Part shown: piece after piece, positions 1,875 through 51,875 of the stretch
Layout of the letters: each line of letters opens with the position of its first letter
Position numbering within the stretch: position 1 is the stretch's first letter
From: Bolinopsis microptera
Lineage: Eukaryota; Ctenophora; Tentaculata; Lobata; Bolinopsidae
Length of the DNA: 64,000 nucleotides
Assembly (NCBI RefSeq): GCF_026151205.1
Contig: NC_087074.1
Span: 20,267,240-20,331,239, forward strand
Direction: 5' to 3'
Notes under the pieces: generated by a model
Told to the model about the DNA's origin: nothing
The model's input: only the letters and a program-made list of their open reading frames with translations
Database searches by the model: none
Translations under genes and position numbers: made by a program

Positions 1875-2759
1875 CAACCCTGGCGCGTGGGGACACGTTT
1901 TTGCTAGTAGTTTGCGACATTATTTTACGGGTATCGAATCTCGCGACTTCAACGAAGTCCTGGGGACACGTTTTCAATAATTGATAATATTTTCAGCCCC
2001 TATCGTTTTAAGCATTGTTAGGGCTTTCCCAGAAACTAACTCTCATCATCCTAGGATAATCGTGTGTCGCACAGCACCTCTTTCAGTAACGAGAGTAGTC
2101 GCATGCAGTCCAGAATGACGTGTACGTTTCGGTCACCTGTGGAAAAAGGAAGTGAGATATCAAAAATCTGAGAAAACCCCGTTGGATAAAAGCCTTTCAG
2201 GTAGGTGCTAGTCAAGATTTCATCTCTTTAGACCTTAAGATGGCTTCTAACACCTCGTAAAAAGTTTTCAAAAGTAAAATGTACTCGCGACTATCAAAAA
2301 ACAACAAAAACGTGTCCCCAATTTGCTTTTTTGAGCGCGCTGAGATCAGCGCACCGAGCTGATCTAGCTACTTATATGTTATATGAACAGACACACAACA
2401 ATATCAGTGAATATAAGTGATTTCGGTTATTGGAGTAATTTCATCAGAGCAGTCACATTTTTGATGGTGATTAATACTTTAATAACATTCCACAACAAGG
2501 CAACCATTAACTATGTAGTGTGTACCGTGTGCAGTGTGAAGTATAATATAGAGTTGGCATGAAGTTAACAGTTTACTTATCACGAAGTTTAATTAGAAGA
2601 TAAGGAAAATATTGTATTGTTATCTGTCAAAGGAATTTAATGTATTCTAACAACTTGTTCTTATAATAACTAATCGATGAACCACATACAGGGTTGGTGT
2701 GAGTGTAATGTGTAAGAGTTTGTGTGAGAAGATATAGAGAAGCAAAATTCAACATCACT

Positions 2760-2877
2760 GGATACGGCCATACTTGGTTGAATACACCCCATCTCGTTCG
2801 ATCTGGGAAGTTAAGCAACTGCAGGCCGGGTTAGTACTTGGATGGGTGACCGCCTGGGAATTCCCGGTGCCGTATCC
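2760..2877 (+). rRNA. 5S ribosomal RNA (left arm)
   Basis: The 118-nt sequence has matching ends (GGATACGG and CCGTATCC, the helix I strands). It contains the conserved AGTTAAGC box A, the internal element, and a canonical box C around TACTTGGATGGGTGACCGCC, which together form the type I Pol III promoter bound by TFIIIA. Structure and length are those of an animal 5S rRNA. A T-run follows at once, as expected for Pol III termination. It differs from the right-arm copy by one base (T versus C in the ACTTGGTTG block). No 5S pseudogene signature is seen. Confidence 0.95.
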
Positions 2878-2881
2878 TTTT
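2878..2881 (+). terminator. Pol III T4 terminator of left 5S gene
   Basis: TTTT starts on the base after the 5S 3' end, and a second T-run (ATATTTTC) follows a few bases later as a possible backup. Confidence 0.75.
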
Positions 2882-3142
2882 GTTATATTTTCGAAGAATT
2901 GCTTTACTGAACAGAAGAATTGTGTACATTGGCTTTTATAGAATTGCAGTGATTATTAAGAATATCATTTTTTCCTAAGCAATATAAGAATATATAGTCT
3001 ATGTTCAAACGGAAGGAAATATTTCCAAATGTCAGAATAACATTGCTTAGAATAGTATAGCTACTAAGTTTTGTCTGAAAGGGCTTTTTTGTTTCTAAGA
3101 TCTATCTTAAACATTCTGCTTAAAATTAACTAGAATGTATTC

Positions 3143-3730
3143 TTAAGTTAACTTGAAGAGTACTGCAAGGTATCCTGGAGTTACCTTGAAAAGTACTACA
3201 AGATATCCTGAAGTTAACTTGAATAGTACTACAAGGTATCCTAGAGTTAACTTGAAGAGTACCACAAGATATCGTGAAGTTAACTTGAAGAGTACTACAA
3301 GGTATCCTGAAGTTAACTTGAAGAGTACTAAAAGGTATCCTGAAGTTAACTTGAAGAGTACTGCAAGGTATCCTGTAGATAACTCGAAGAGTACTGCAAG
3401 GTATCCTGAAGTTAACTTGAAGAGTACTACAAGATATCCTGAAGTTAACTTAAAGAGTGCTACAATGTAGTTAACTTGAAGAGTATAACTGCAAGGTATC
3501 TTGAAATTAACTTGAAGAGTACTGCAAGTTATTCTGAAGTTAACTTGAAGAGTACTACAAGGTATCCTGAAGTTAACTTGAAGAGTACTACAAGGTATCC
3601 TGAAGTTAACTTGAAGAGTACTACAAGGTATCCTGAAGTTAACTTGAAGAGTACTACAAGGTATCCTAAAGTTAACTTGAAGAGTACTACAAGGTATCCT
3701 GAAGTTAACTTGAAGAGTACTACAAGTTAG
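3143..3730. repeat. 33-bp tandem array, left (about 18 units)
   Basis: The unit reads GTTAACTTGAAGAGTACTAC then AAGGTATCCTGAA. It contains two perfect palindromes, GTTAAC and AGTACT. Because 33 is a multiple of 3, long frames stay open (an 11-residue EVNLKSTTRYP repeat), but this follows from the period and both strands are open. The outer part (3153-3470) is an exact mirror of 5301-5618. Confidence 0.9.
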
Positions 3731-8939: not shown

Positions 8940-9058
8940 ACCTTATAACGTAAATGTGGCACTGTGGCACTTGTGGCACTAACATGTGGCACTTGCGGCA
9001 CTCACATGTGGCACTTGCGGCACTATCATATGTAGCATGTGGCACTGATAGTGCCGCA
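8940..9058. repeat. Left half of GTGGCAC-rich MITE (copy 1)
   Basis: It starts with ACCTTATAACGTAAATGTGG, the same tip as the intact element at 32083, followed by alternating GTGGCAC and TTGCGGCACT blocks. It is then joined to the 3' end of a Gypsy gag frame, so the right half of the element is missing. Confidence 0.75.
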
Positions 9059-10009
9059 AGTACGATTTTCAGCCGGCTTGTAGTAAGTTCGGTTATCATT
9101 GAAATTTCTTCCAGCATAACTACTGCCTGCTCTTTCCCCTCTTTGTGCATTGTTAAATGACTTGTTGCGACGCTCATTTTGAAATTTGAAACAGTTCTGT
9201 TTAATGTGACCTGCTTTGTTACAGTAGTGACAAACTTTCTTAGTCTTTCTTGGTGCTATGCAATTAACAGCCCAGTGGCCATATTTTCCGCAGTTAAAAC
9301 AATTTCCACTAACTTTATTAGAGTTATCAATATTAGGAGCTTCTGCTTTTAAAATTTCAATTTCGTGTCCGCCAGAAGCTTGTTTCCTGGCTTCTAAATT
9401 CTTCTCTAAATCTATAGCGTCCCGATATAAGGTTGCAAAGTCGGGTGTTTTACTATTCATTAAATGAATTGCAATTGAGTTGTTTAGTAGGCCGTACACA
9501 AAAATATTTCGTATATTTGCCTCACGAGCTGCAGATTCAGCTTCGTCGTACGCTTTGCTAGCCATCCTCTGTAATTTTCGGCCAAATTGTTCACAAGTTT
9601 CGGAGGGTAATTGCTTCATTGCAAATAGTTTTGCTCGTGCTTGCTGTCTACTGTCTGGTTCTAGAATATTTCGCAGCCTTTTTTTAAATTCAGTCCAGTT
9701 GTTTTTCTGGTCCGAATTAAGTTTAATAGCGCTCAGTTTCTCATTACTTTCTGTATCGAGATAAGTGAAAAGGAGCCTCCCACGATCCGCTTCCGGAATA
9801 TTTAAAATTCGGGCAAAATTAGACCAACTTTCCAAATATGCATTAAAGTCCTCGCCGTACTTAAAAATTTGAGGTTTCCTGCTTGCATGCGAGGTACTGT
9901 TGTCCCTCCGGAAAACTACTTTACTTAAATCACTTAACAAATTTTCTTTAGCTGCCACTTCTGTTTCTTGTTTAATTACATTAACTTGCTCTTCTGTAAA
10001 AGTTGCCAT
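9026..10009 (-). CDS. Ty3/Gypsy-type Gag, 3'-truncated element (copy 1)
   Basis: Retrotransposon Gag, the structural nucleocapsid precursor. The start is taken at the ATG of MATFTEEQ (10009), because upstream codons of the open frame lie in the leader. The middle of the protein has the helical capsid-like Gag region (FNAYLESWSNFARIL, then LRNILEPDSRQQARAK). Two CCHC zinc knuckles follow, CFNCGKYGHWAVNC and CHYCNKAGHIKQNC, and then a basic glycine/arginine-rich tail. The last ~10 residues (CGTISATCYI) are not Gag but read from the GTGGCAC repeat. No protease, RT or integrase follows. A 5' LTR lies at 10265-10655 in the correct orientation. The frame is intact here but shifted in copy 2 (23403-24384). 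Confidence 0.8.
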   Translation of the reverse strand: MATFTEEQVNVIKQETEVAAKENLLSDLSKVVFRRDNSTSHASRKPQIFKYGEDFNAYLESWSNFARILNIPEADRGRLLFTYLDTESNEKLSAIKLNSDQKNNWTEFKKRLRNILEPDSRQQARAKLFAMKQLPSETCEQFGRKLQRMASKAYDEAESAAREANIRNIFVYGLLNNSIAIHLMNSKTPDFATLYRDAIDLEKNLEARKQASGGHEIEILKAEAPNIDNSNKVSGNCFNCGKYGHWAVNCIAPRKTKKVCHYCNKAGHIKQNCFKFQNERRNKSFNNAQRGERAGSSYAGRNFNDNRTYYKPAENRTCGTISATCYI

Positions 10010-10264
10010 TCTTAATTTTAAACGCCATACTTGATATAAACAATACCTCAAATATCAGTGCGGTAGCAGGTTTATATGTTTGGGCTCTTCCACTTGTCGT
10101 ACTCTGCGTCGGCGGGCTCAGTCAGCAGTTTGTGTTCGTTGGGCGGGCTCTTCGTTGGGCGGGCTCTTCGTTTCTCGTCTCCAGTCTCTGTAGCTGTAGG
10201 TTGGGCGGGCTCCAGTCTCTGATGGTTTAGAGAATGTGCGTGGGCTTTTTATCCTCGTCGCCAA

Positions 10265-11032: not shown

Positions 11033-11718
11033 CTTATATTTGATCCTTCGAACAGCTGTTGAGCAATGAAACGCAAACATAATCTTAGCAAAATGAATAT
11101 ATTTCTTTTATCTTCAGCATTTAATCAGTCACATAATCTGAGAATATCAATGGTTAGTTTGAAAATGTCAAAAATTCTCATCAAAAATGTAGTAAAGTCT
11201 CAAAAAATTAATTTAGCATCTCGTAAAAATGGAATAGTTTAAAATCGGAACAAAATTAATCGCATATACTATAATAATGTGGAGTCTGCAGTAGTTCATT
11301 AAATCAAAAAGACGCAATTCAAAAATTGATAGACTGCATATATAAACAAAAAATGGACGATTTAAAAATAAAATTCGGGACACCATGAAAAATTAGCTTC
11401 CAGAAACGGAATTCACATTGTTCAGGCCAAACGGATAAAGTGTCTTCAATTTGTTAATATAAAACTGTTCTGACTTTCTAATATTATCTGGGGATGTAGA
11501 ACACAAAATATCAAAATGGAAACTTTCATTGAAAACAGATCTCTCCCTCAAATTATGAACTGAAAAAAGATGTGCCCCTAAAACATTCTCGTCATCAAAA
11601 ACTCTATGGCTCTCAACATTCCCCTTACTACTCGCCTCTAAAATCTCATAATATTTACTGCGATGACCATTCACACGTTGGCTGAGGCTGGTGACTGTTT
11701 TTCCCACGTATACGTTAT
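11033..11718 (-). mobile_element. 5'-truncated Penelope-like element fragment with 12-bp TSD
   Basis: Copy 2 of the duplicated segment lacks this block entirely. In copy 1 it is bracketed by TAAATACAGAAT at 11021-11032 and 11719-11730, a 12-bp target duplication that occurs once in copy 2. The insert is on the minus strand, begins inside the GIY-YIG domain and carries about 360 bp of 3' non-coding sequence (11033-11392). The insertion is therefore later than the segmental duplication. Confidence 0.8.
11393..11718 (-). CDS. GIY-YIG endonuclease domain of a Penelope-like element, 5'-truncated
   Basis: The fragment starts directly in the second half of the GIY-YIG motif (VYVGKTVTSL, with YVG in place of YIG). 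It continues with the conserved arginine region (SQRVNGHRSKYY) and ends with the conserved glutamate segment SEQFYINKLKTLYPFGLN, typical of Penelope-like elements. In these elements the domain nicks DNA to prime reverse transcription. RT and linker are missing because of 5' truncation. The frame happens to extend upstream into the neighbouring MITE, so the ATG there is not native. It is dead on its own. Confidence 0.75.
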
Positions 11719-12125
11719 TAAATACAGAATAAATGTTTATTAATCCACGAATCAACGCTCACGGATCGCGCTTTCTCACAAATCAACGCTCTCTTACTGA
11801 TCAGGATCTTATTCTTAGTGCTTAGTTTTACAAATTTGTTTTTTGATACACCATCAAACATGGAATAATTGCTATTGCAATGAAAGCCAAGCCTCGCATA
11901 CGAATATATGTAATTCAATTATGCATAATGGCAGGCAAAATGCAGCAATTTCATTGGACAAGAGCAACTGTTGGCGACGTTTGACTACAAATGGCAGCGT
12001 TTGATTGAAAACCTGGTTTCAGCAACCCCTGTGATTGATCAAATTATATTATTTTGCTGAGTGGTTTCTTAAAAACAATATCTTCAAGAACGCGAGCGTT
12101 GATTCGTGTATTTATTCTGTATTTA
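11719..12125. mobile_element. 407-bp MITE with ~30-bp imperfect TIRs (copy 1)
   Basis: The left end TAAATACAGAATAAAT and ACGAATCAACGCTC is mirrored at the right end by GAGCGTTGATTCGT and ATTTATTCTGTATTTA. The left copy has a short insertion between the two blocks. No transposase is encoded. It lies directly upstream of the receptor gene in both copies (second copy 25596-26002, same length). Confidence 0.65.
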
Positions 12126-12926
12126 ATAAACTATCTTAGATATAGGGCAGTCGAGTTTTCTTCCTTTTTCTTTCAACGTTGGACAGCTGCACTCGTGCAT
12201 ACCGAATTTTTTGGCAGTCCTTGAAAATTAGTGCCATGACAAGAAGGAGCCATTTAATAATAGGTATATTAATTCAAGTTTTCATCCTTGACCTCGTCCT
12301 CGGCTCCAATGACCCACGAGAACCCTTGTCTAAAGAAAAGGTAATAATAACCACGGAAGTGTACAAAAGTCCACCTCTTTACTCTTCGCTACGTGCAGAT
12401 TTTACGAGAGGAACGTGCAGAGATGATGTTGACTATTTCCTTCATCGGAATGTCAATGACACCTCATTCAGGGAAATGTTTTAATACTTTCAACACTACT
12501 ATATAACAAATAATTTTAGGCATGTACAATGGCATGACGGGCTAGGAAGTACAGCCGATCTCCTGGTATGCGGGTGCGCTGGGGTTCCTGAAGTTCGCCT
12601 CCTGAGTTAGGCTCCTCTCGCCCAGTGCTTGCACTGGGCAACAACACCTTAAACACGATGTAAGTTTCTCTTTTACTTCTTTCTCATTGATAGCTTATTT
12701 TGAATGTGAATTTTTACATCTCTGATATTGCCCCTCTTATCCTTACTCTAGCTATATTTTCACTGGCAAATTTAACTTTACTCCCGACCAGCAGTTTCAT
12801 TACACATTTTCTCGTGCCATTTTCCTTCCAGGTCGTGTTTAGTGTTGTGGGAGGTTGCCTACTCTGAGGTGTTACGGATGGTTCCCTGGCAAACTTTGCT
12901 GCCAGACTCGACAATCTCTGACAACA

Positions 12927-14297
12927 ATGATAAACCTTCAAGAGATTTTCGACTATGTCAAAGCTGCCTCAGTTGAGGATCTACGTCATATCCTTAACTC
13001 TGTTCAAAACGAGCTGCCAAAGCGTGAGGGAAAGGTGGACAATTTTGTGTTACATATAGAGGACTTCTGCGATGATGAGGTTCTCCGTGATGCGGTATGG
13101 GTTGAATGTGAGTCCCTGCAGAAACTGAACACCGAGGGAAGACACAAGGCAACAACAGCTTGGTTGTGCTCACAGGATGCACCCTATATTTACACTGACA
13201 CAAATCCAGTGCACCCACCACAGGATATCAGTGGTTTCCCTAATATCAAAAGACTCCTGAGTCTTGTAAACTCGAGTACGGAGATAACTGGACCTCTGGA
13301 CTCATGTCTGGTCATCAAGTATGGAAACAACCAAGCGAGTACTTCAATACACAATGACGGTGAGAAACTAATGGACCAGGAGAAATCGATTTGCTCTTTC
13401 TCACTGGGATGTGAACGGACGCTTGAGTTTTACGAGGGCACAACTGGGAAACCTAATTGTGTCAAGACGATAAGGATGAAGAACAACAGTCTTGTTGTAA
13501 TGCGGCCTGGGACACAGCAGAATCTGAGGCATGCTGTGCGAGCAGAGCCGGCCACAAAGGGAGAGCCTCCAAAGAAATCGGAGCAAGTAAGATACTCCCT
13601 GTCATTTCGAGCTATTGTGAAATCTGGTGGCCAAGTTAGCTCTCAGAATATCAGCACAGAGACTAGTACACCAGCTTCTGGCACCGAAGCCCAAGTACCT
13701 GCGCAAAGAGTCACGTTGGTTGCTGGAGACTCTTATGCTCAAAGATTGGACTCCGCAAAGCTGGGAAAAGGGAAAGTCACAGTCGTAAATGTTGCAGAAG
13801 GCGGAGCAAAAATGGACAAAGTCCAGAAACAGTTGGAGGACTACTGCACGGCACATCCTGATGTCCACGTTAAGAAGCTTCTGATCAGCGTAGGCACAAA
13901 CGATATTAGGCGTGTGGGGGATATTGGTATTTTGAGGGGACCAGTAAAGCAACTTTTTGGTAAGATAGGCCTATTATTTCCCAACTGTAAGGTATATGTT
14001 CAATCTCTATTGCCATTACCTTTACAGAATGATAACGATAAATTAACTAACAAGAGGGTAATGGATTTTAATAGGATTTTATACAATGAGTGTGTATTTA
14101 GGAGGTTCTTTTTCATGGATGTGTTTTATCCCTTTACAAAGTTTAAGAGAGCTCTAAGTGAGCCTGTTAAGAGATTTGATCCCTTATTTGAGAACAAAGG
14201 CATTCACCCCAATCCTCAGAAAGGTATGGGTGTGATGGCCAGATTTTATATTCGTGCCATCCACAGTAGATATTTTAATCCTTATATCTATCAGTAG
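12927..14297 (+). CDS. LINE ORF1: AlkB-like 2OG-Fe(II) dioxygenase + SGNH hydrolase
   Basis: 456 residues from the ATG at 12927; the frame is open a little further upstream without an ATG. The N-terminal half carries a complete AlkB-family signature: iron ligands HND (about residues 142-144) and H202, and the 2-oxoglutarate arginine motif RYSLSFR (222-228), within the expected strand pattern. The C-terminal half is an SGNH/GDSL hydrolase: block I GDSY (Ser ~269), the glycine block in NVAEGG, block III GTND (Asn ~325), and the histidine block NKGIHPN (His ~426). SGNH (esterase) domains are known in ORF1 of CR1-like LINEs. The fused AlkB-like domain, which in other families repairs alkylated RNA or DNA, is unusual. 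Both catalytic sets look intact. Substrate is unknown. Confidence 0.85.
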   Translation: MINLQEIFDYVKAASVEDLRHILNSVQNELPKREGKVDNFVLHIEDFCDDEVLRDAVWVECESLQKLNTEGRHKATTAWLCSQDAPYIYTDTNPVHPPQDISGFPNIKRLLSLVNSSTEITGPLDSCLVIKYGNNQASTSIHNDGEKLMDQEKSICSFSLGCERTLEFYEGTTGKPNCVKTIRMKNNSLVVMRPGTQQNLRHAVRAEPATKGEPPKKSEQVRYSLSFRAIVKSGGQVSSQNISTETSTPASGTEAQVPAQRVTLVAGDSYAQRLDSAKLGKGKVTVVNVAEGGAKMDKVQKQLEDYCTAHPDVHVKKLLISVGTNDIRRVGDIGILRGPVKQLFGKIGLLFPNCKVYVQSLLPLPLQNDNDKLTNKRVMDFNRILYNECVFRRFFFMDVFYPFTKFKRALSEPVKRFDPLFENKGIHPNPQKGMGVMARFYIRAIHSRYFNPYIYQ

Positions 14298-14379
14298 TTC
14301 TTTTGTGCTGTCTTCTGAACCTTGTTAAGCTAATGATATGCAGTTGTAGTCTGGCAAGTATACTCACCTGTAAAACACC

Positions 14380-17300
14380 ATGATCGATTTAGTAACATAC
14401 AGATTTAGAGTTGGAGTGTTTAGTGGAAATTCTTTTGCAAAATCCATCAAACATCAGAACCGTAGACGTGGTACAGGTAGTATTTTTGATTATTTAGACA
14501 GCTGCATTGATTCTCGCTTATTATTTTATATTTTTTATGTTATATTCATATGTCACTTTTCGCTAATCACTATCACATATGTCGGGGTAAGTGGGTTGGC
14601 TTTTTCTAGGGTCACTTATGATTGCCGAGCCTTTGTACCAACATACCCAGTTCCTAACTTGTGCCGATGCTTTACAGTTTATTTCTTTTTATATTTAGCA
14701 AATATGTATTATCTGAGGAATAATTACAGTTTCGATGGTTTATATAGATTTTGCCAGATTTCAATCCATAAGAACTTAAATTGCATATTTACTGGTAGAA
14801 CCGGCAATACACTCACGGGATGCATAATTTGGTTGTTTTTGATGAATGGTTTTTTGATAGTTTTAGTAAACCCTGGAATTGTAAACCCAGGGCCGTCTCC
14901 CATAGGTGTTAGAGTTGGGAATGGTAATAAATTGAATGTTTACTTTCAGAATGTTCAAGGTCTCATCCCTTTTGGTGAACTGAACAATGCCCATCCAATG
15001 ATTGATACCACTAAATGTCTTGAAGTGTCGACTTATCTTAATGAGGCTAAGATAGATATTGCAATACTTAACGAAACCTGGTTTAAGAGTTCTATTGCTG
15101 ATAGTGAATTTCTGCACCCTGACAGATATTAGATATTTCGCTCTGATAGATCGAATAAAACTCATCCACCAGATCCTTCTAATCCAACCCGGTTTAGGAG
15201 GAATGGTGGAGGGGTCATGATTGCAGTGAGAGCAGACCTTGATCTAACTTCAAAGGAAGTTCGTCTCAAGTATGGTGCAGAAATTCTTGCTGTGGAATTT
15301 AAGACCTCCACTGGAATTAAGTTTGTTGTATGCACATGTTATCGTGTTGGTACACTGGGCTCCGCAAATCATGAAAAAATTGTTGAGTCTTTGAAAACTC
15401 TTCTCAGAAGAAGAGGACTGAGTAAAGTCTTCATACTAGGAGATTTTAACCTGACCGGAGTTTCCTGGTCTACCCTGGCCAGCTCCTGTCCTATTGAGCA
15501 ATCTTTTGTTGAATCTTTTGTTGATCTAGGCCTTCAACAATGTGTGTTAACACCTACCCACTTCAAAGGCAAAACACTTGACCTATTGCTCACAAACTCT
15601 GTGTCAAATATTAATGACCTAATGGTAGGTGAGAGAGATAGTGCTTGCAAGTCTGACCACTTCCCCATCAATTTTAAGATCAACGTTAAAGTTGGTAGGA
15701 AGAAGCCAGTCAGGCGTATGTGCTATAACTTTAAGACTGTGAACTGGGAGAGGCTAAACCATGAACTCCGACACACGAATTGGGATGCATTGCTCAATGG
15801 CACAGAACCTGAAATTGGATGGAAAAAATTTAAGGACAAACTTTTTAATGTCACAGATAAATTTGTTAAAAAATGCTCTGTCAAGACTGATGGCCAAGAT
15901 CCATGGTTTGACTCGGAGTGTTATGATGCATGGCGTAAGAAAGTGAGATTACATAAAGAAAGGCATAAAAGTGATAGAGCTGAAATTGCATTCTCCCTTG
16001 CAGTTGCTAGGAAAAATTTCAAAAATGTGGTTGCTCAAAAAATGAGGGAAACATTAAATGAATCTGATGATAGTGCTTTAATAACAAAAAAATTTTGGTC
16101 CTATGTCAAATCGAAGACAGCTAGTCAGCGGATCCCTGAGTTTGTAAGCCACAAAGGCACTGTCCGCAACTGCCCTGAAGACCAGGCCAACCTATTTAAT
16201 GACTTTTTCTTCGAGCAGTTCTCTGAGGCATCAACTTATGACATAGATATAGATTACTCTAATGATTGGCGCTTTGATATTGAATTTGACCACAGAAGGG
16301 TTCGCAAAATCCTTTCCAATATTAATGCTAATAAAGCTTATGGACCTGATGGTATCCATGGGAAACTTTTGAAAAACTGTGCGGTTGGGCTCGCATACCC
16401 TATATCAATACTTTTTCATTCATGCTACAACATTGGGACACTACCAAGGGAGTGGAAACTGGGGCACATTGTACCAATATTCAAGAAAGGGGATAAACAT
16501 GAGGTTTCAAATTATAGGCCAATTTCTCTTACATGCTTAATCACAAAAGTTCTTGAACGCATAATAAGAGATGAGTTATTGGCACTTACTAATGGCATGA
16601 TCAATGACAAACAGCATGGTTTCCGAGCTGAGAGATCTTGTGCAACTAATCTTGTAGGACTGTGCGACAGCCTAGCGCTCTCACTGAATGAAAATATGAG
16701 AACAGATGTAGTCTACTTTGATTTTGCCAAAGCATTTGACTCGGTTAACCATGATCTTATATTATTTAAGTTAAAGAGCAAATTTGGTATTGATGGGAGG
16801 CTACTGAAATTCATCACTGATTATCTAAGAGACAGGCAACAACAGGTCTTGATAAGTGGCAAGTTTTCTTCTATGAGAAACGCCCAGTCTGGTGTACCTC
16901 AAGGGTCAATTTTGGGACCATTGCTGTTCATTATGTTCATTGATGATATATCAGTGGGGATTTCACCAGGCACACAACTGTCACTGTATGCCGATGATAC
17001 TAAAATTTGGCGTAAGATTGTTTCGGAGTCTGATATCCTGCGACTGCAGAAGGACATTGATTATCTCCATGACTGGTCACTTTCTAATAAAATGAGATTT
17101 CATCCCGACAAATGTAAGGTCCTCACCGTCGCAGGAAGGATATCCGAAACAGTTTCCCTCCTTAGTGTCCTACCACTCTTTAACTTTGTATACTCCATGG
17201 GAAGAATCACACTTGACTATGTTGATCATGAAAAGGATCTGGGTGTAATTGTGACATCAAATCTCGATTGGAAAGATCAGTGCTCCAAAGTCCTTTCTAA

Positions 17301-17916
17301 GGCAAACCAAAAATTAGGCATGGCGAGAAGAAATTGTTATTTTGTCCAAGACGTAAATCGTCGTAGAGTACTGTATCTCACTTTAGTGAGGAGCCTATTT
17401 GAGCATTGCTCGGTTATATGGAGACCAGTCACAAAATCCCAGATAAGCAAGCTGGAGGGCCTCCAAAAGCGTGCTATTAAGTGGATTCTTCACGAGGAGT
17501 ATATGAGTTATCCACCATCCACATACATTCAAAAATGCAGACAGCTGAAGATTATGCCGATTGAAGACCGCTTTGACTTCTTGGATCTCATCTTCTTCTT
17601 TAAAATTGTGAAGCAACATATACCTGTCACTTTACCCTCATATTTGCAACCATTTCAAGGCCACTCAAGGCTCAGAAATAGTCACATGGACTCTCTATGT
17701 TTTGTAAGCTCTATCTCACCTCGAGCAAGCTCCAACGCTTTTGCCAAGAATTTCTTCTATAGGACCCACACTAAGTGGAATCACATTCCTCTAGATATCC
17801 GTGAGATAGAGAGTATCACTGATTTTAAAAGTAAACTTTCCACTTACATGTGGGGGAAAATTATCCCGGTGGATTCGGACTCTGAACTTGACTATTCAAT
17901 AGAAACAAATCCGTAA
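14380..17916 (+). pseudogene. LINE ORF2: AP endonuclease-reverse transcriptase, one in-frame TAG
   Basis: One continuous frame of about 1,178 codons broken only by TAG at 15130-15132. Residues 1-175 are hydrophobic and end in an NPGP motif (about 169-172), as often seen before the endonuclease of CR1-like ORF2s. The APE-type endonuclease follows (FQNVQG, LNETWF, ILGDFNL, SDHFPI). The RT has motif A FDFAKAFDSV, motif B GVPQGSILGPLLF and the YADD motif C (LYADDTKI). The C-terminal thumb region runs to 17916. Family function: target nicking and target-primed reverse transcription. The stop lies inside the endonuclease, so this copy cannot make a full enzyme without readthrough. Otherwise it looks young. 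Confidence 0.85.
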
Positions 17917-18200
17917 AATAGTTTATTCAAGATTATCTATTCTTGCTGTCTGCATTCACATATTTCTCAATTTCATCTCACAGCACAATATTTTATGAAT
18001 TGATTGAATGGGTGTGTGATTTTGTTTAAAGTAACTTATTACAATTTTATAAGGGCCCATGCTTGTGCAGGAGCTGCATTTGCACTCAATATCTGTGTTT
18101 TGGTGACCCTCAGGTCCTTTGGTTACATACACTTTGTCCGAGACAATTTCAACTTTGACAATCCATGCTTAGAGGACAATATTATATTTAACTAATTTTT
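17917..18200 (+). other. LINE 3' UTR candidate
   Basis: About 280 bp after the ORF2 stop, without a supported gene. It ends near a T-run (AATTTTTTTGA at 18195-18204), which read on the minus strand is an A-tail of the oppositely oriented sequence that follows. Confidence 0.5.
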
Positions 18201-18543
18201 TTGATTTGAAACTTTTACAAAATAGCAAGTATACAAATGTACAGCAATTCGAACAAACATATAAAATGGGCCGAAATGTATAAATGCTAAAAAGCGTGGG
18301 TCAGTGAAACAAGTACAGAGGACAACTTTCAAAACAGGAGTTTTTTGGCCGCCCAAAGTCTCAATAACATCACCTCCACCTAGTAATAAAATTATGAAAC
18401 GTGAAAAGTGTGAAACAATCAAATAATAATGTATTTATATAATATAATTGTCTCTCAAATACAGATAACGTCCGTAAACTCTTAAAATATTCCTACAAGT
18501 ACATATTATACTGATCGGTGTCCGAGAAACATGAATTACGTCA
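18201..18543 (-). other. Non-coding tail of the antisense ORF1-like gene
   Basis: Sequence after the minus-strand stop, A+T-rich, ending in an A-run (minus strand) at about 18196-18202. It fits a LINE 3' UTR directly joined to ORF1. Confidence 0.4.
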
Positions 18544-19464
18544 TCATGGTGCCTTCTTAACCCGGCTACAGACCTTCCCGTTACGGATGTAGTGGTCGAG
18601 ATGAGTCTGTTCAGCCCTCTTCTTCTTCAGGTCAGTTACCACGTTCTTCCTTGCTGCACGCTCTTCACTGGATCTATCAGGACAGATCCATACATCTTTG
18701 TGTGCATCAGCCATCCTCAGTCTCCCTGTTTTCATCAGAATCTGATGAACTGCTGTTGAGCTAGGGACGGTGATCTTGACTGGTCGGATAGCCGTGATAC
18801 CTGGCCTCTTCCAGCCGACTCTAGTCGCTTCAAAATGAGGTTTCTCCCCGATCTCCTCCAATACTGCGGTTACCAGAGCTGGAAGCTGTTCTCCATCCTC
18901 TTCTTTCAGTCCAAACACTATCAGATTCTTGCTCCTGTCCTCCTCTGCAGCCACACTCTTTATTACATTCTTCAGAATTTTACTGTTGCAGACCGCGCCA
19001 TTTGTGCTGTTCTTTTGTACAGCGGCACTGTAGCTCTTAATCCCTGTCTCCACCGTTGTTTGTACTGTCTCTTCAACTGACGTCTTAAACAACTGTAGTT
19101 GTTCGTCCTTCTGCACTAGCAACTGGTCCTGCAACCTGACCATCTTTTCCTTGTCTGCTATTGCTTCCGTCTTGAGGCACTCAACGATTTCCATCATAGC
19201 GCTCATCTGACTACTCTGCCGTCGAACGAGGTCTGCTGCTTCCATAACCCATTCTGCCATATACCTTTTATAGATAGACGGAGACATGAGTATTTCTTTG
19301 TCCATATCTCCACGAATTTCGAAGTTTTCTACTTTCAGTTGTCTTGCCATTGAGGTGAACCATCTATCAGCACATCCCTCTACATCTTCCTTTTCTTCAT
19401 AGTTGAAATCCTTGAGTTTCTTCTGAGATCGGGTCAAATGTAAATCATCCTCCGTGGTATACAT
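18544..19464 (-). CDS. LINE ORF1-like RNA-binding protein, antisense to the host LINE
   Basis: About 306 residues from MYTTEDDLHL (19464); an upstream in-frame ATG at 19491 is also possible. An N-terminal acidic/helical region (KKLKDFNYEEKEDVEGCADR) is followed by a long heptad-like coiled coil (KEKMVRLQDQLLVQKDEQLQ). Next comes an RRM-like segment with NLIVFGLKEE and a C-terminal basic domain with DVWICPDRSSEERAARK and LKKKRAEQ. This order matches ORF1 proteins of CR1/L2/Jockey-type LINEs, which coat the element RNA. No matching ORF2 follows on this strand. It may be a separate 5'-part insertion, or an internal antisense gene of the 7.1-kb element, because a plus-strand A-tail lies beyond it at 19597. 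Confidence 0.7.
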   Translation of the reverse strand: MYTTEDDLHLTRSQKKLKDFNYEEKEDVEGCADRWFTSMARQLKVENFEIRGDMDKEILMSPSIYKRYMAEWVMEAADLVRRQSSQMSAMMEIVECLKTEAIADKEKMVRLQDQLLVQKDEQLQLFKTSVEETVQTTVETGIKSYSAAVQKNSTNGAVCNSKILKNVIKSVAAEEDRSKNLIVFGLKEEDGEQLPALVTAVLEEIGEKPHFEATRVGWKRPGITAIRPVKITVPSSTAVHQILMKTGRLRMADAHKDVWICPDRSSEERAARKNVVTDLKKKRAEQTHLDHYIRNGKVCSRVKKAP

Positions 19465-21989
19465 TGTATAGTAATGTACAAGTATACACACGCAAAGGCT
19501 TACTACGCGGTAGCAGCAAACTGAATTTATCGCAAAATTACAACATTGTGTAAACTTGTATGTAATTGACTGATTTGAAAGATTTCAATAAAAAAAATAC
19601 AATAGACCATTTTATAACAACATAATGAAGAATAGGGACACATTACTTCGATCACCTGAAGATATTCATGCTTGCCCCATGTCGATACACATATATCCAG
19701 TATTGGACACAACAAATTGGACTTGTTTGATCCCTGTATATTACGTCTGTGATGGTTTCTCTGACTGCTTAACTGACGAGTGTGATTGCGGAGGGGAGAC
19801 TACCGAGCAGTCAGTAAACCAGACTCCGATTTTCTACTGTGCTCAACAGCCTGGATGTGTCTCATTTCCACAGGTAACGAAAACATAAGAAAATATTTTT
19901 CTTTATGAATACAACAGTGCGAATGATCACAGATTATTAACTCCCCACTTGTTTATCGCACGTTTCTAATAATAATAAACATATCCCTGTCTGTTTTATG
20001 AATATGACTGCACCTCCCACCTCAGATTTGCGATAACATAGAAGACTGTTTAGACGGTAGTGACGAGAGTTTCTGTTCAAACAACGATCAAATAGAACAG
20101 AATAGTTTAAAAAGGGACAATCCAGTTGCGCAATGCATAAACAATTACAGTCTTCCTGAAAATAACATATGGCTTTACCAGCATGAGCAGTTAATAATGT
20201 TCTGTGAAAATAATTGCAGCAGTTATTTTTCAAAATCAGATCAATGGTATAAGTTTTGCAAGCTCCTAGGCTTTAACCATATTTCAATTCCTGCACTATA
20301 TTTGTGTCATTATATGCCTAGCCTGGAATCAATTTGTGACAATAAAATAGACTGTACAAATGGTGAAGATGAAGTTGGATGTCCGGGCAGATTCTACTGC
20401 TATAACCACCTTGAAAATGTGTCTACAAGCGAAAGGACATTGTCGGTTTCACCGGATAAGAAATGCGATCAAGTTAAAGATTGCCCAAATAATATGGATG
20501 AGTGTAATATTGACTGTGACCTAGGCAACATAGCTTCTCCAAAATCCCTCATAAAATCGAATGCTCTCTCGTGTTCAAATCTCATCTTTGGATTAGCTGT
20601 TTTGATTCTGAATGTAAAGAACGGTTATAAAGCAATGAAACGCACAGCCACTAATGTTATTGCGAAAACTGATAGACTTCTTTGCATACAAATATTTGCA
20701 TATGACTTTATGATGGGAGTTTATCTTTGCTTCATCGTGCTGGCATCCCTCGTTCTCCGATAACTGGAGGCTATTGTGTACGCTCTGACTGGTGGAGGTC
20801 GAGCGTTTACTGCGATATTTTGGGGGTGATCTTCTCTTTTGCAAGTCACGGATCTCTCTTGATAGTTTCTTTGATGAGTATTGTAAGGAGCATCCAGTGC
20901 ACTGTATCATTTATCAGGATTCCTTATAAAGCCATAATTTTAAGTTCCTGCATCATTTTCACCCTGAACTTGATTCATGCAATACTTCCAGTTGTAAAGC
21001 TTCCCCTAATTGAACACATCTTCAAATCGAAAATCTTCATGGTGAACATTGCCGAAAATCCCTTGTTGAGCTCCTTTGATGAACAGAACATAACAGATCT
21101 GCATAACAAATTCTTTCCAAACCAGACTACTGAGTACATTACAACGATGCTGGATGATTTGAAGCAAATAACAAATATGCCTGAGATCTTCGACTTCAGA
21201 ATGATTGGGTATTACGGGACCACGCCAATTTGCATAAGCAATATATTCAAGGATCAGGAATCTTACCGAGCTTTTAAAATTGGATATTGTACTGCCATAT
21301 CTGTGCTGTTAGCTGTAGTTTCAGTATCATATATTTTAATAGTGGTGAAGCATAACAAGTCAGCAGCAATTGCAAACGACAACCAGGGAGATCATCAGCA
21401 AAACAAAGACCTCCTTATCAAGGTTTGCTTGATGATCGGATCTCAACTGGTAAGCTGGGTGTCCCTAATAATAACCGCTAACTATTTCATCGGCACTGAC
21501 GGAAGTTCTGTACCAGAATATGTATTTGAAGTTTTCGCCCTGTTTGTGATGCCCATCAACAGTTTGCTTAACCCAATATTTTACAGTGATATGTAATATG
21601 TATAAAATTGTCAAGCAGAATGGTTCATATATTATTAGTGCTATTGTTACTAGAATTAACAAAAGAGTTAATCCATCTGACCAAACAGCAGAGTATGAAA
21701 TGAACAATATCAATCGGCCATGAATTTAACAGACTGAGGAAAGCTGACGAATATATCATAACATTAACATATTATATGAATAATATGGGTCAGAAGTATT
21801 GACACAAATATAGGTAAAAGCATTTACCGCTATGACCGTAAAATGTAAAATAAACAAAATGTCGCTTGTTTTTCTATCAACATTTACCTTGATTAACATC
21901 AGTAATCGTGTGCTATTCATGCTGCTGATATTATACACTGTGGAGCCTTTTATCTGCTCAAGAGGGTTTATGCCAAGGATAAGCACATT

Positions 21990-39604: not shown

Positions 39605-42600
39605 TCATCCAGCACTACATTCCCCGACTGTGTCCTCTGTCTGTGCTCCTTGTCGTCCTGTACCAGGTCCCCGGACTGTGCCCTCTGTCTGTGCTCCTTG
39701 TCGTCCTGTACCAGGTCCCCCGACTGTGTCCTCTGTCTGTGCTCCTTGTCGTCCTGTACCAGGTCCCCGGACTGTGTCCTCTGTCTGTGCTCCTTGTCGT
39801 CCTGTACCAGGTCCCCGGACTGTGTCCTCTGTCTGTGCTCCTTGTCGTCCTGTACCAGGTCCCCGGACTGAGTCCTCTGTCTGTGCTCCTTGTCGTCCTG
39901 TACCAGGTCCCCGGACTGACGGACTGTGTCTGTGCTCCTTGTCGTCCTGTACCAGGTCCCCGGACTGTGTCCTCTGTCTGTGCTCCTTGTCGTCCTGTAC
40001 CAGGTCCCCGGACTGTGCCCTCTGTCTGCGCTCCTTGTCGTCCTGTACCAGGTCCCCGGACTGTGTCCTCTGTCTGTGCTCCTTGTCGTCCTGTACCAGG
40101 TCCCCGGACTGTGTCCTCTGTCTGTGCTCCTTGTCGTCCTGTACCAGGTCCCCCGACTGTGCCCTCTGTCTGTGCTCCTTGTCGTCCTGTACCAGGTCCC
40201 CGGACTGTGTCCTCTGTCTGTGCTCCTTGTCGTCCAGCACTACATTCCCCGACTGTGTCCTCTGTCTGTGCTCCTTGTCGTCCTGTACCAGGTCCCCGGA
40301 CTGTGTCCTCTGTCTGTGCTCCTTGTCGTCCTGTACCAGGTCCCCGGACTGTGTCCTCTGTCTGTGCTCCTTGTCGTCCTGTACCAGGTCCCCGGACTGT
40401 GCCCTCTGTCTGTGCTCCTTGTCGTCCTGTACCAGGTCCCCGGACTGACGGACTGTGTCTGTGCTCCTTGTCGTCCTGTACCAGGTCCCCGGACTGTGTC
40501 CTCTGTCTGTGCTCCTTGTCGTCCTGTACCAGGTCCCCGGACTGTGTCCTCTGTCTGTGCTCCTTGTCGTCCTGTACCAGGTCCCCGGACTGTGTCCTCT
40601 GTCTGTGCTCCTTGTCGTCCTGTACCAGGTCCCCGGACTGTGTCCTCTGTCTGTGCTCCTTGTCGTCCTGTACCAGGTCCCCGGACTGTGCCCTCTGTCT
40701 GTGCTCCTTGTCGTCCTGTACCAGGTCCCCGGACTGACGGACTGTGTCTGTGCTCCTTGTCGTCCTGTACCAGGTCCCCGGACTGTGTCCTCTGTCTGTG
40801 CTCCTTGTCGTCCTGTACCAGGTCCCCGGACTGTGCCCTCTGTCTGTGCTCCTTGTCGTCCTGTACCAGGTCCCCGGACTGACGGACTGTGTCTGTGCTC
40901 CTTGTCGTCCTGTACCAGGTCCCCGGACTGTGTCCTCTGTCTGTGCTCCTTGTCGTCCTGTACCAGGTCCCCGGACTGTGCCCTCTGTCTGTGCTCCTTG
41001 TCGTCCTGTACCAGGTCCCCGGACTGTGTCCTCTGTCTGTGCTCCTTGTCGTCCTGTACCAGGTCCCCGGACTGTGTCCTCTGTCTGTGCTCCTTGTCGT
41101 CCTGTACCAGGTCCCCGGACTGTGCCCTCTGTCTGCGCTCCTTGTCGTCCTGTACCAGGTCCCCGGACTGTGCCCTCTGTCTGTGCTCCTTGTCGTCCTG
41201 TACCAGGTCCCCGGACTGTGTCCTCTGTCTGTGCTCCTTGTCGTCCTGTACCAGGTCCCCGGACTGTGTCCTCTGTCTGTGCTCCTTGTCGTCCAGCACT
41301 ACATTCCCCGACTGTGTCCTCTGTCTGTGCTCCTTGTCGTCCTGTACCAGGTCCCCGGACTGTGCCCTCTGTCTGTGCTCCTTGTCGTCCTGTACCAGGT
41401 CCCCGGACTGACGGACTGTGTCTGTGCTCCTTGTCGTCCTGTACCAGGTCCCCGGACTGTGTCCTCTGTCTATGCTCCTTGTCGTCCTGTACCAGGTCCC
41501 CGGACTGTGCCCTCTGTCTGTGCTCCTTGTCGTCCTGTACCAGGTCCCCGGACTGTGTCCTCTGTCTGTGCTCCTTGTCGTCCTGTACCAGGTCCCCGGA
41601 CTGTGTCCTCTGTCTGTGCTCCTTGTCGTCCAGCACTACATTCCCCGGACTGTGTCCTCTGTCTGTGCTCCTTGTCGTCCAGCACTACATCCCCCGGACT
41701 GTGCCCTCTGTCTGTGCTCCTTGTCGTCCACCACTACATTCCCCGGACTGTGCCCTCTGTCTGTGCTCCTTGTCGTCCTGTACCAGGTCCCCGGACTGTG
41801 CCCTCTGTCTGTGCTCCTTGTCGTCCTGTACCAGGTCCCCGGACTGTGCCCTCTGTCTGTGCTCCTTGTCGTCCTGTACCAGGTCCCCGGACTGTGTCCT
41901 CTGTCTGTGCTCCTTGTCGTCCTGTACCAGGTCCCCGGACTGTGCCCTCTGTCTGTGCTCCTTGTCGTCCTGTACCAGGTCCCCGGACTGTGTCCTCTGT
42001 CTGTGCTCCTTGTCGTCCTGTACCAGGTCCCCGGACTGTGCCCTCTGTCTGCGCTCCTTGTCGTCCAGTACCAGGTCCCCGGACTGTGCCCTCTGTCTGC
42101 GCTCCTTGTCGTCCTGTACCAGGTCCCCGGACTGTGTCCTCTGTCTGTGCTCCTTGTCGTCCTGTACCAGGTCCCCGGACTGTGTCCTCTGTCTGTGCTC
42201 CTTGTCGTCCTGTACCAGGTCCCCGGACTGTGTCCTCTGTCTGTGCTCCTTGTCGTCCTGTACCAGGTCCCCGGACTGTGCCCTCTGTCTGTGCTCCTTG
42301 TCGTCCTGTACCAGGTCCCCGGACTGTGCCCTCTGTCTGTGCTCCTTGTCGTCCTGTACCAGGTCCCCGGACTGTGTCCTCTGTCTGTGCTCCTTGTCGT
42401 CCTGTACCAGGTCCCCGGACTGTGCCCTCTGTCTGCGCTCCTTGTCGTCCTGTACCAGGTCCCCGGACTGTGCCCTCTGTCTGTGCTCCTTGTCGTCCTG
42501 TACCAGGTCCCCGGACTGTGTCCTCTGTCTGTGCTCCTTGTCGTCCTGTACCAGGTCCCCGGACTGTGTCCTCTGTCTGTGCTCCTTGTCGTCCAGCACT

Positions 42601-42787
42601 ACATTCCCCGACTGTGTCCTCTGTCTGTGCTCCTTGTCGTCCTGTACCAGGTCCCCGGACTGTGCCCTCTGTCTGTGCTCCTTGTCGTCCTGTACCAGGT
42701 CCCCGGACTGACGGACTGTGTCTGTGCTCCTTGTCGTCCTGTACCAGGTCCCCGGACTGTGTCCTCTGTCTATGCTCCTTGTCGTCC
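39605..42787. repeat. 48-bp minisatellite, left block (~66 units), open in six frames
   Basis: The unit reads GTCCTGTACCAGGTCCCCGG, ACTGTGTCCTCTGTCTGTGC, TCCTTGTC. Variants: T/C in GTGTCC/GTGCCC; TG/CG in CTGTGCTCC; a CAGCACTACATTCCCC form replacing TGTACCAGGTCCCCGG; and an 8-bp ACGGACTG insertion at unit ends (39918, 40447, 40736, 40881, 41410, 42710). No frame on either strand has a stop because 48 is 3 x 16. A higher-order period of ~1.30 kb is visible (41411 and 42711 start matching blocks). Confidence 0.95.
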
Positions 42788-42906
42788 TGTTATATTTCTT
42801 GTTTATTTGTTTCAGTTATTTTAATACTAATGTTTATAATGTTTCAGAATGTTTTAACCTCAGTGTGATTAAGTCTAAATGAACAAAGAGTTTTACTTAT
42901 ACTTCA
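42788..42906 (+). repeat. 5' LTR
   Basis: 119 bp, TG...CA ends, identical to the 3' LTR. Contains TTTATAATG (~42832), a possible weak TATA, and ATGAACAAAGAG near the 3' end. Confidence 0.85.
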
Positions 42907-42934
42907 TTTAATCACACTGAGGTTAAAACATTCT
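42846..42934 (+). promoter_or_regulatory. 27-bp LTR/leader complementarity: candidate self-primer and PBS
   Basis: LTR bases 42846-42872 are the exact reverse complement of 42908-42934, which begins one base after the LTR, exactly where a primer-binding site should lie. The 35-nt loop spans the LTR end. No tRNA-like PBS (TGGCGCC or TGGTATC type) is seen there. Tf1/sushi-type elements prime from the 5' end of their own RNA folded onto the PBS, and this layout would allow the same. Confidence 0.55.
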
Positions 42935-42942
42935 CAAATTAT

Positions 42943-45900
42943 TTGTTATATAGTAGTGTTGAAAGTATTAAAACTCTATTAAAAAGTTCATCTCTCAACG
43001 CAATTGTTAATAACAATGAATCAGTGTCAGATTCAGAAGGGTGTGCTAACCATGATGACAACTTCGTAGTAGCTGCCCCATTTCAATTCTCCTGTTATTT
43101 CTGCGGTGGGCCCAAACCGCACACAAACAGACAGGCCTGTCCTGCTTTTAACTCTAACTGCAACGGTTGTGGAATTCAGGGACATTTCCAGAAAGTCTGC
43201 AAAGCCGGTCGCCAATCTCAAGTTCGGGGCGGCAGTGCCCGCGGCAAGAATCGACGTAACAATCAATATCGTAGCTCTCAGAATATGACATCATCAGCAG
43301 TCCCTCACAGTAGCTCTCAATCCCAAAACGGGACATCATCGGCTCTTCACAACCATTATCTTGCAGCTTCGCCTCCATGCTTGTCCAAGAGTATTACCAG
43401 AGTCCTTGTCAATGGAAGAGAGCTTGATGCCTTGGTAGATTCTGGAAGTTCAGCAACTTTTCTCAGTAATGCCAGTGTCCGGAAGCATCAATGGGACATT
43501 AATCGCGGAGACCATGCACCTGTCAGTATGGCCTCTTCATCCCACATCTCTCATCCTGTCGGTCACTGTACAGTAGATGTTCATTTCAATGGTGAATTAT
43601 TACCAAATCAAACGATTGTGGTAATGAAGGACTTATGTGCTGATATGATCATAGGACTAGATATCCTTTCTGATTACAAATCCGTGACATTGGAGTTTGG
43701 AGGCCACAAACCTCCTACTATTGTATCTGCAGCTGCTTGTCTCATCAAAACACCTAAGCTCTTTGGACAATTAGAGGGAGACAGCCACCCTATAAGTATC
43801 AAATCAGGGAGATATTCTAACATTGATAAAACATTTATCAGAGTCGAGGTTAAAAAGCTGCTAGAAGCAGGAATCATTAAAGAGTGCGAGTCTCCATGGA
43901 GAGCCCAGGTCCTGGTCCACCAAGGGAATGAGAATCACAAGAAACGCCTTGTCATCGATTACTCCCAAACGATAAACAGATTTACTAAATTGGATGCTTA
44001 TCCAGTCCCTCGAATCGACGAGATGGTAGAAGATATCTCAAAGCGCAAGTACTACAGTACACTTGATCTCTCATCTGCTTACCACCAGGTCCCTATTGCC
44101 GAAGACGAGCAAGAATATACCGCTTTCGAAGCTGATGGTAAGCTCTACTGTTTCATGTTTATCCCTTTCGGGGTGACTAACGGAGTGTCTGCCTTTCAAA
44201 GAACTGTCAACGATATCATAGCTGCAGAACACCTATCTGGTGTATACGTATATGTTGATAATATCACCATCGTAGGCATGACTAAGGAGGAGCATGATAA
44301 TAACCTAGCAGAATTCCTTACAGCTGCTGCTAAGTACAATCTTGAATTTAATGATAGTAAAACAGTGTCCGGGGTCACTTCGATTAAGCTTCTTGGATAT
44401 CTTGTTAGTCATAATTCCATAAAGCCCGATCCTGACAGAATACAACCTCTCCTGGGTATGCCTGCACCCAACAATGACAAATCCCTAAAGAGTGTACTTG
44501 GCTTGTTCGCTCATTACTCTAGGTGGGTCAAGAACTTTTCAGACAAGATTCACCCCCTGTCCCATGTCACTTCATTTCCTCTCAATGACAAACAGATAAA
44601 AGCATTTCAACTGTTAAAATCTGAAATTGCCAAAGCTGTCCTGGCCACGCCTGATCCTAATCTTCCTTTTACTCTAGAAACGGATGCATCAGACTATGCA
44701 ATTGGCGCTACTCTCTGTCAATCCACTCGACCGATTGCATTCTTCTCCAGAACTCTTAACTCATCGGAGCGCAATCATCACTCAGTAGAGAAAGAAGCTT
44801 ACGCTATCGTGGAGGCAATTCGTAAATGGAAACACTACCTCCTAGGGTCCCAATTCACTGTCATCACGGATCAACAGTCAGTTTCCTTCATGTTCGGTCT
44901 CTTAAACCATGGTAAAATTAAGAACGATAAAATAACCCGTTGGAGGATCGAACTTTCGCCTTATGCATTTGACATTATGCACAGGCCTGGAAAAGATAAC
45001 CTTCCAGCCGATGCTTTATCTCGATTAGTGTATCCTCATTGCTCAGCGATCACTAGTCTAAAAGCCTTACATGATCAGCTTTGCCATCCAGGAGTAACGC
45101 GTATGTCTCACTTTGTTCGCTCTCGGAATCTTCCTTTCTCTGTGGAAGATATTAAGAAAATGACAAGATCCTGCAGGGATTGTGCCGAGGTTAAGCCACG
45201 TTATTTTAAACCTCAACAGCCCCAGCATCTTATAAAAGCTACGGCCCCATTTGAGCGTTTGAACCTGGATTTCAAGGGACCACTCCCAACAAACACGAAA
45301 AACAAATTCATCCTCACTATCGTAGATGAATATTCTCGCTACCCCTTTGCTTTTCCCTGTACCGACACTTCCACCGATTCTGTCAAAAGCTGTCTAACGT
45401 CAATCTTTGGAGTATTTGGCATGCCGTCCTTCATTCACTCCGATCAGGGTAGTGGGTTCATGTCTGCAGAACTCAAGAAATGGCTACTAGAAAAAGGCAT
45501 TGCTACAAGCCGTTCTTCACGTTTTAATCCCCAAGGAAACGGTCAAGTGGAGAAATACAATGGAACAGTGTGGAAGGCTGTACAATTAGCCTTAAGGACG
45601 AGAAAACTTCCACTAAAACTTTGGGAGCAGGTGATTACTGATGCTTTACATTCTATACGGTCCCTCCTATGCACTGCAACTAACGATACCCCTCACGAAC
45701 GTGTGTTTAATTTTCCTCGTAAATCAACAACTGGTAGCTCTCTTCCTGGGTGGCTAACAGATAACTCTAAAGCACTAATGAAACGTCACACCAATCGATC
45801 AAAGTACGATCCTCTCGTAGAAGAAGTGGAGCTTCTGGACGTCAATCCTAACACCAGTCATGTCAGAACTGGAGAAGGGGTAGAGCTGACGGTCTCCAAT

Positions 45901-51860: not shown

Positions 51861-51875
51861 ACAATTAAATTATAC

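Follow-up and report, generated by a model that had tools for sequence, protein, structure and literature searches.

Among the closest described systems is the esterase-type (type IV) ORF1 of CR1/L2 LINEs, for example that of zebrafish ZfL2-1. Little is understood about LINE ORF1 proteins, and the 2013 paper on this esterase, as far as its accessible text goes, knew of one enzymatic activity among them and presented the esterase ORF1 proteins as unique among ORF1 proteins in having an enzymatic function (PMC3905857). The accessible parts of two papers thus describe an SGNH hydrolase in a LINE ORF1 (PMC3905857; PMC4120745); the second reports this type of ORF1 from vertebrate L2/CR1 groups only, with neither AlkB nor oxygenase occurring as a term in its available text (PMC4120745). 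According to the accessible sections of the first paper, the ZfL2-1 ORF1 is composed of a coiled coil and an esterase, with no AlkB domain; the esterase requires S143 and H282, the triad Asp (D279) is present three residues before the His (D279/H282), turnover is low, and the authors favour a role in membrane targeting (PMC3905857).

An AlkB domain has also been described in a transposable element, i.e., in a Ty3/Gypsy LTR retrotransposon of the orchid Phalaenopsis, where the accessible text reports a separate ORF (ORF2) encoding an ALKBH5-like protein with intact catalytic residues that demethylates m6A in vitro (PMC9289625). The same text covers the AlkB domains of plant RNA viruses (Alpha-/Betaflexiviridae, Closteroviridae), which are held to repair viral RNA; the likeness considered here is that a copied RNA genome carries an AlkB domain (PMC9289625). 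Another parallel is provided by the Vesta LTR and Athena elements of bdelloids with their GDSL or DEDDy ORFs, in which one accessory enzyme is common to unrelated retroelement types in one genome; these enzymes are a GDSL protein and an exonuclease, and dioxygenase and Helitron do not occur as terms in the accessible text (PMC5408684).

We analyzed a LINE in a stretch of 64,000 nucleotides (the window) from the ctenophore Bolinopsis microptera. As in ZfL2-1, an SGNH ORF1 lies upstream of an ORF2 that encodes an endonuclease and a reverse transcriptase; the ORF1 of the window, however, also contains an AlkB-like domain. This arrangement differs from the orchid element as well, because the AlkB domain is found in LINE ORF1s and in Helitrons, resembles ALKBH2 and ALKBH3, and is fused to an SGNH hydrolase. 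The original prediction for this locus held that an AlkB domain in a LINE ORF1 was undescribed. In agreement with it, we found no AlkB domain in a LINE ORF1 or in a Helitron in the open-access literature searched, and such a case may be in print elsewhere (subscription papers, repeat-database reports); an AlkB domain in an LTR retrotransposon has, though, been published (PMC9289625, accessible text).

The LINE copy in the window and its ORF1

The features of the LINE copy are as follows (coordinates in the window).

12479..19593, plus strand: whole copy, made up of some 5.76 kb of LINE sequence and a nested insertion
12479..12926, plus strand: 5' UTR (5' ends of eight copies aligned, the window copy among them)
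12927..14297, plus strand: ORF1, AlkB-like dioxygenase joined to SGNH hydrolase, 456 aa
13149..13610, plus strand: AlkB / 2OG-Fe(II) oxygenase domain, aa 75-228 (PF13532, 4.3e-16)
13350..13358, plus strand: HxD iron ligands H142 and D144 (invariant in family alignments)
13530..13532, plus strand: third iron ligand H202 (family alignments)
13590..13610, plus strand: RxxxxxR, i.e., R222 and R228 (RYSLSFR), 2-oxoglutarate binding (family alignments)
13728..14219, plus strand: SGNH hydrolase domain, aa 268-431 (PF13472, 9.5e-11)
13731-13733, plus strand: SGNH Ser269 (residue table)
13899-13901, plus strand: SGNH Asn325 (residue table)
14205-14207, plus strand: SGNH His427 (residue table)
14380..17916, plus strand: ORF2, endonuclease and reverse transcriptase (Pfam); start also placed at 14374
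14884..14895, plus strand: NPGP motif near the ORF2 N-terminus, after hydrophobic stretches (in all five ORF2s read)
15328..15669, plus strand: endonuclease domain Exo_endo_phos_2 in ORF2 (Pfam, 4.4e-11)
16492..17127, plus strand: reverse transcriptase domain RVT_1 in ORF2 (Pfam, 2e-29)
18187..19543, no strand assigned: nested insertion splitting the 3' UTR of the window copy; other copies continue without it

With an endonuclease and a reverse transcriptase in ORF2 and an A-rich 3' end, the element is an APE-type LINE (non-LTR retrotransposon). Aligned copies share a 5' end at about 12477-12484, and some of them start later. The last 50 bases of the window copy resume after the nested insertion (approximately 18187-19543), and its 3' terminus AATAAAA is found at 19544-19593; AATAAAA followed by an A-run of variable length closes all six other aligned copies of the family. 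No clear target-site duplications were detected by eye in five copies. A single in-frame TAG (15130-15132) breaks the ORF2 of the window copy; L051, a second copy from this family, has both frames open, with 485 and 1178 codons from stop to stop.

Two side observations concern this copy. Most of a 346-codon frame on the minus strand (18544-19584) lies in the nested insertion; by eye, the frame is similar to a LINE ORF1, and it has no Pfam match at 0.001. The opening 170-190 aa or so of ORF2 (14380-14895 in the window, and likewise in L051, L052, L053, L033 and L042) consist of hydrophobic stretches ending in NPGP, with the endonuclease directly after; we take this motif to resemble a 2A-type recoding site whose consensus has been partly lost.

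ORF1 begins with an ATG at 12927 and ends with a stop codon at 14295-14297, in the position originally given. The prediction that it joins an AlkB-like dioxygenase to an SGNH hydrolase, and that it belongs to a LINE, was borne out by Pfam matches for both domains and by the endonuclease and reverse transcriptase of ORF2. The profile search proposed for the N-terminal half yielded a match of 2OG-FeII_Oxy_2 over aa 75-228 with 60.1 bits, compared to the curated cut-off of 31.2, and Lipase_GDSL_2 matched aa 268-431 with 43.0 bits (cut-off 32.9). In addition to the iron ligands and the two arginines, E146 and R164 are present in the AlkB domain.

Both catalytic signatures had been considered complete, and this holds for AlkB and only in part for SGNH. 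The SGNH blocks G267-D-S269, G292-G293, G323-T-N325-D and H427 supply S, G, N and H, whereas the Asp of DxxH is missing from the window family, which has K at position -3 (N in the sister family with 80% identity). Four other families (470, 455, 521/523 and 513 aa) have an Asp at position -2, and the 478-aa family has DWLH, with GTS in place of GDS. Since the DxxH Asp is missing from both the window family and its 80% sister, hydrolysis by the SGNH domain of the window family is less sure than the dioxygenase chemistry predicted for its AlkB domain.

Recurrence in LINE families and Helitrons

A search of the genome that contains the window (264.65 Mb, 232 contigs) with ORF1 produced at least 96 matches at E <= 0.001; 93 of 704 first-look candidates were scored, and the 96 include the window copy and some second pieces of one locus. 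The matches were sorted into seven families with roughly 99, 80, 40, 38, 40, 42 and 30% identity to the ORF1 of the window, and there is one further copy with 66% identity that contains stops. Many matches have open frames of 455-526 codons, and 10 of the 12 top full-length matches are without a stop in ORF1. These seven families (window, 80%, 470, 455, 521/523, 513 and 478 aa) are referred to below as the window clade.

The AlkB Pfam profile detected at least 151 matches in the same genome (150 of 587 candidates scored). Among the 150 matches listed, all are above the cut-off, 149 are without a stop in the match, and no place is common to them and the ORF1 matches, as compared by eye. Both Helitron proteins and LINE ORF1s with a range of architectures are represented among them. 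Nineteen of the listed loci were read, namely L061-L072, eight of which (L064 and L066-L072) belong to a single family, and L073-L079, and 59 of the 150 lie outside the frame-length classes that were counted and are mostly unread. Grouping by frame length and identity resulted in 15 element families, the window clade included.

Several combinations of the two enzymes are found in ORF1-like frames beyond the window clade. In the frames of 646, 611, 551 and 593 aa, AlkB is followed by SGNH; the 843-aa frame has AlkB, a long linker and SGNH; the 676- and 707-aa frames have a PHD-like finger, AlkB and SGNH, and the next frame contains a finger and a stretch that is endonuclease-like by eye. An endonuclease frame lies directly downstream in the 593, 551 and 843 families; the 646 and 611 families are presumably LINEs, too. 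Pfam detected AlkB in all eight non-window element frames scanned, at 1e-18 or better, and SGNH at E 0.01 in seven of them, all seven under the curated SGNH cut-off. In the remaining one, of 707 aa, the motifs GDS, GIN and DIVH can be made out only by eye. The AlkB and SGNH pair was thus recognised in 14 of the 15 families read (all seven of the window clade, and seven others with a weak SGNH match). It should be noted that, when ORF1s of the window clade were scanned singly, Pfam AlkB was found at E 0.01 in only three of the seven. By eye, DxxH is present in the SGNH domain of seven of the eight non-window families and absent in the 593-aa family, and the first SGNH block reads SSS (646, 611 and 551) or HDS (593 and 843) instead of GDS.

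Three of the listed AlkB matches look like host or non-element genes. L061 is the host ALKBH2 (PDB, 4e-60) and L062 is the host ALKBH3 (PDB, 2e-40). Of two glutamate receptor frames that were also compared, one is most similar to vertebrate kainate receptors and the other to ML032222a of the ctenophore Mnemiopsis. The third, L063, has a 296-codon AlkB frame (1063-1950) with the host-type RLNLTFR and, about 700 bases further on, a separate frame that is SGNH-like by eye (2662-3438); it may belong to the host, or to an element whose two enzymes lie in separate frames. Beside a copy of the 646-aa family there is one more AlkB-SGNH frame (L070:71-688, minus strand), which by eye represents an additional family.

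One long frame (L073, C10:16874300-16884200; 3388 codons in the genome, 3273 of them read) is a Helitron, with Helitron_like_N and a PIF1-like helicase in one protein. Its domains are arranged as SGNH, Pro/Ala repeats, AlkB, Helitron_like_N and PIF1 helicase (Pfam: SGNH 1e-5, AlkB 7e-21, Helitron_like_N 5e-22, PIF1 1e-21), so that the order of SGNH and AlkB is opposite to that in the LINE ORF1s. Among 41 Helitron_like_N matches in the genome, fragments counted, six share one open frame with AlkB, and these frames have 3388, 3366, 3321, 3226, 2459 and 2225 codons. Two more Helitron places (C12:816078 and C10:4306300) have an AlkB match less than 4 kb away in another frame, and the remaining ones have no AlkB among the 150 matches listed. 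As a side observation, a frame on C12 near 2469580 (L065) likewise opens with SGNH, Pro/Ala repeats and AlkB.

Conservation and relationships of the AlkB domain

Relatives had been expected to retain the iron ligands, and they do so in every case covered. H142, D144, E146, R164, H202, R222 and R228 are present in all 23 ORF1s of the seven families; this residue table omits near-identical copies (such as L003-L013, L015-L017, L026, L031, L032 and L039) and fragments (such as L019-L021, L023, L024, L028 and L048-L050). In the alignment of the seven families, 29 of 236 columns are invariant, all five AlkB catalytic residues among them. For 17 element AlkB domains representing the 15 families, 12 of 160 columns are invariant, including the catalytic five, and 148 vary; when the three host-like rows are added (20 rows), 10 of 160 remain invariant, and the catalytic five are still included. 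The chance that five random columns are all invariant is 2e-5 for 7 rows and 3e-7 for 20 rows.

The expectation of purifying selection in related LINEs holds in the closest comparison and not throughout. Between the window family and its 80% sister, dN/dS is 0.188 for AlkB (bootstrap 0.10-0.32), 0.109 for SGNH and 0.106 for ORF2; thus, SGNH and ORF2 change more slowly than AlkB. In the 521/523 cluster, AlkB dN/dS is 0.14-0.19 for three pairs, two of which were bootstrapped and have upper limits of 0.45 and 0.57. Conversely, AlkB dN/dS is 0.7-1.5 in the 478-aa family, on six or seven changes, and 0.8 for L014-L018, on eleven changes. More distant family pairs are saturated.

Outside the catalytic five, two contacts differ between element and host domains. 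The Asn of RxNxTFR is replaced by Ser in all 17 element rows and retained in all three host-like rows. In the N-x-Y contact, the Asn is gone in all eight window-clade rows, and the Tyr is also gone in the 513-aa family; the roles of the corresponding ALKBH5 residues are taken from the accessible text of PMC9289625. Because these contacts have changed, cofactor or substrate handling may differ from that of the host enzymes, judging by the residues.

The best solved-structure matches of the element domains are human ALKBH3 and ALKBH2, with which they have HxDxE, H and RxxxxxR in common. A profile of the window clade searched against PDB matched ALKBH3 best (1.4e-13), followed by ALKBH2 (3e-9) and E. 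coli AlkB; a profile of the other families likewise matched ALKBH3 best (5e-30), then ALKBH2 and E. coli AlkB, with ALKBH8 (4.8e-10), ALKBH7, ALKBH1 and a DNA 6mA demethylase (5e-4) far behind. No ALKBH5 or FTO chain in PDB was matched within E 1 by the window-clade profile or within 0.01 by the other-families profile. The PHROG family "alkylated DNA repair" matches all seven window-clade AlkB domains. Unlike the human enzymes, the element domains have Ser for Asn in RxNxTFR, are fused to SGNH and are mobile; we file them as ALKBH2/ALKBH3-like and, because of this Ser, not as members of either subgroup.

A tree built from 20 domains recovers the window clade (100/99) as one group and both Helitron rows (100/95) as another, and the union of these two groups has a support of 67/38, a weak deep fork at which long branches meet. 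The best outsiders for the window-clade profile were Helitron domains (87-91 bits), followed by the 707 and 676 families (75) and host ALKBH3 (69). In one scan of viral contigs with the same profile, 10 stretches fit the pattern and none of them was a relative. All element AlkB domains may descend from a single capture, as the Ser of RxSx(S/T)FR in all 17 element rows would suggest; the weak deep forks, the long branches meeting and the reversed order of SGNH and AlkB in the Helitron make it less certain.

Possible functions and other features of the window

LINE RNA is coated by ORF1 proteins, and reverse transcription is stopped by m1A and m3C. Helitrons move via single-stranded DNA, which is also accepted by ALKBH3-like enzymes. 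We propose, with roughly even chances of being right, that the AlkB domain removes copy-blocking m1A and m3C from the single-stranded template of the element, with SGNH acting in the same particle; the original suggestion of an action on element RNA is thus the one we favour. ORF1 would be the RNP protein of the LINE, carrying a dioxygenase of the ALKBH2/ALKBH3 kind fused to the hydrolase; the AlkB domain would sit on the single strand of the element itself, i.e., LINE RNA in the RNP or single-stranded DNA in the related Helitrons, and would oxidatively strip the methyls on the base-pairing face (m1A, m3C) that block reverse transcriptase and translation. Since a single-stranded intermediate is common to LINEs and Helitrons, one repair rationale would cover both classes. 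Catalytic activity, substrate, any advantage for the element and the connection of the two enzymes are all inferred here. In keeping with the proposal, ALKBH3 clears aberrant m1A and m3C from mRNA (PMC8254245, accessible text), and viral AlkB domains are held to repair viral RNA (PMC9289625, accessible text). Within the particle, the SGNH domain might work on an acyl group or at membranes, in line with what has been put forward for the ZfL2-1 esterase. Several observations count against this reading: the host has ALKBH2 and ALKBH3 genes of its own, the RxNxTFR and N-x-Y contacts have changed, AlkB evolves faster than the other parts of the element, its dN/dS is high in the 478-aa family and for L014-L018, and Pfam recognises it in only three of the seven window-clade ORF1s scanned singly.

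The AlkB domain could instead be an eraser of m6A, or of another mark written by the host, in element RNA, or of 6mA in DNA, that lets the element escape silencing; such evasion has been proposed for the orchid Gypsy AlkB, and we consider it rather unlikely here. The Ser of RxSx(S/T)FR, which separates all 17 element rows from the host-like rows, fits such a function, in that specificity may have shifted, and so does the DNA 6mA demethylase among the weaker PDB matches of the other-families profile. RNA m6A, given how Helitrons are understood to move, would not account for the Helitron AlkB, whereas DNA 6mA could. A precedent for m6A demethylation in vitro is available from the plant LTR retrotransposon, although the orchid domain is ALKBH5-like in the accessible text (PMC9289625), and the element domains are nearest to ALKBH3 and ALKBH2, with no ALKBH5 or FTO chain matched. 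Action on a host molecule (tRNA wobble bases, host mRNA, DNA or protein) that favours mobility, with SGNH perhaps directed to the same target, is improbable in our judgment. In favour of a host target, the substrates of the AlkB family are diverse and include methyl-ester wobble uridines, esters are what SGNH enzymes hydrolyse, and the other-families profile matches ALKBH8, far under ALKBH3 (4.8e-10 versus 5e-30); however, the main target of LINE ORF1 proteins is their own RNA, and the analysis found no tRNA link.

It is similarly doubtful that either domain, or both, has lost its enzymatic activity and is kept as a fold that binds nucleic acid or membranes. The DxxH Asp missing in the window family, the partial loss of secondary 2OG contacts, and the slow ZfL2-1 esterase, for which membrane targeting is favoured in the accessible text (PMC3905857), point in this direction, whereas all 17 element rows keep the five catalytic residues of AlkB although 148 of 160 columns vary, which speaks against it. 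An artefact, whether a false domain hit or a piece of a host ALKBH gene that was captured and now drifts in a single element, has a negligible probability. A chance match is ruled out by the score of 60.1 bits versus 31.2, the at least 96 genome matches, the catalytic invariance and the low dN/dS, and a host fragment caught in one copy is ruled out as well, ALKBH2 and ALKBH3 being separate host genes.

Returning to repair of the single-stranded template, the recurrence in two transposon classes leads us to suggest, tentatively and at slightly less than even chances, that AlkB and SGNH form a portable two-enzyme kit. In one animal lineage, transposon classes that are unrelated to each other would have attached this kit to their RNP or replication proteins, with the two enzymes in either order and the linkers differing, and its removal of alkyl lesions or of methyl marks written by the host would allow their single-stranded genomes to be copied. 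If this is true, base methylation is a battleground between host and transposons in that lineage. A conserved ORF1 dioxygenase across LINE families and Helitrons would show that methylation or alkylation of nucleic acids limits transposons enough for them to carry an eraser of their own. The AlkB domain of ORF1 also provides an assayable handle, as a single domain with known chemistry and clear point mutants.

Other features were observed in the window. Two arrays of one 48-bp tandem repeat (39621-42790 and 46690-51153; 66 and 92 copies with 93-94% similarity) can be read through in many frames of either strand and flank a Ty3-like pol frame (42883-46143) with protease, reverse transcriptase, RNase H and integrase; the arrays may be LTRs built of satellite, or a satellite invaded by the Ty3-like element. 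A short minus-strand frame (11393-11758) is GIY-YIG endonuclease-like by eye and has no Pfam match at 0.001. There is also a gag frame with a CCHC knuckle at 9026-10054 (minus strand) and a reverse transcriptase fragment at 51862-53448 (plus strand).
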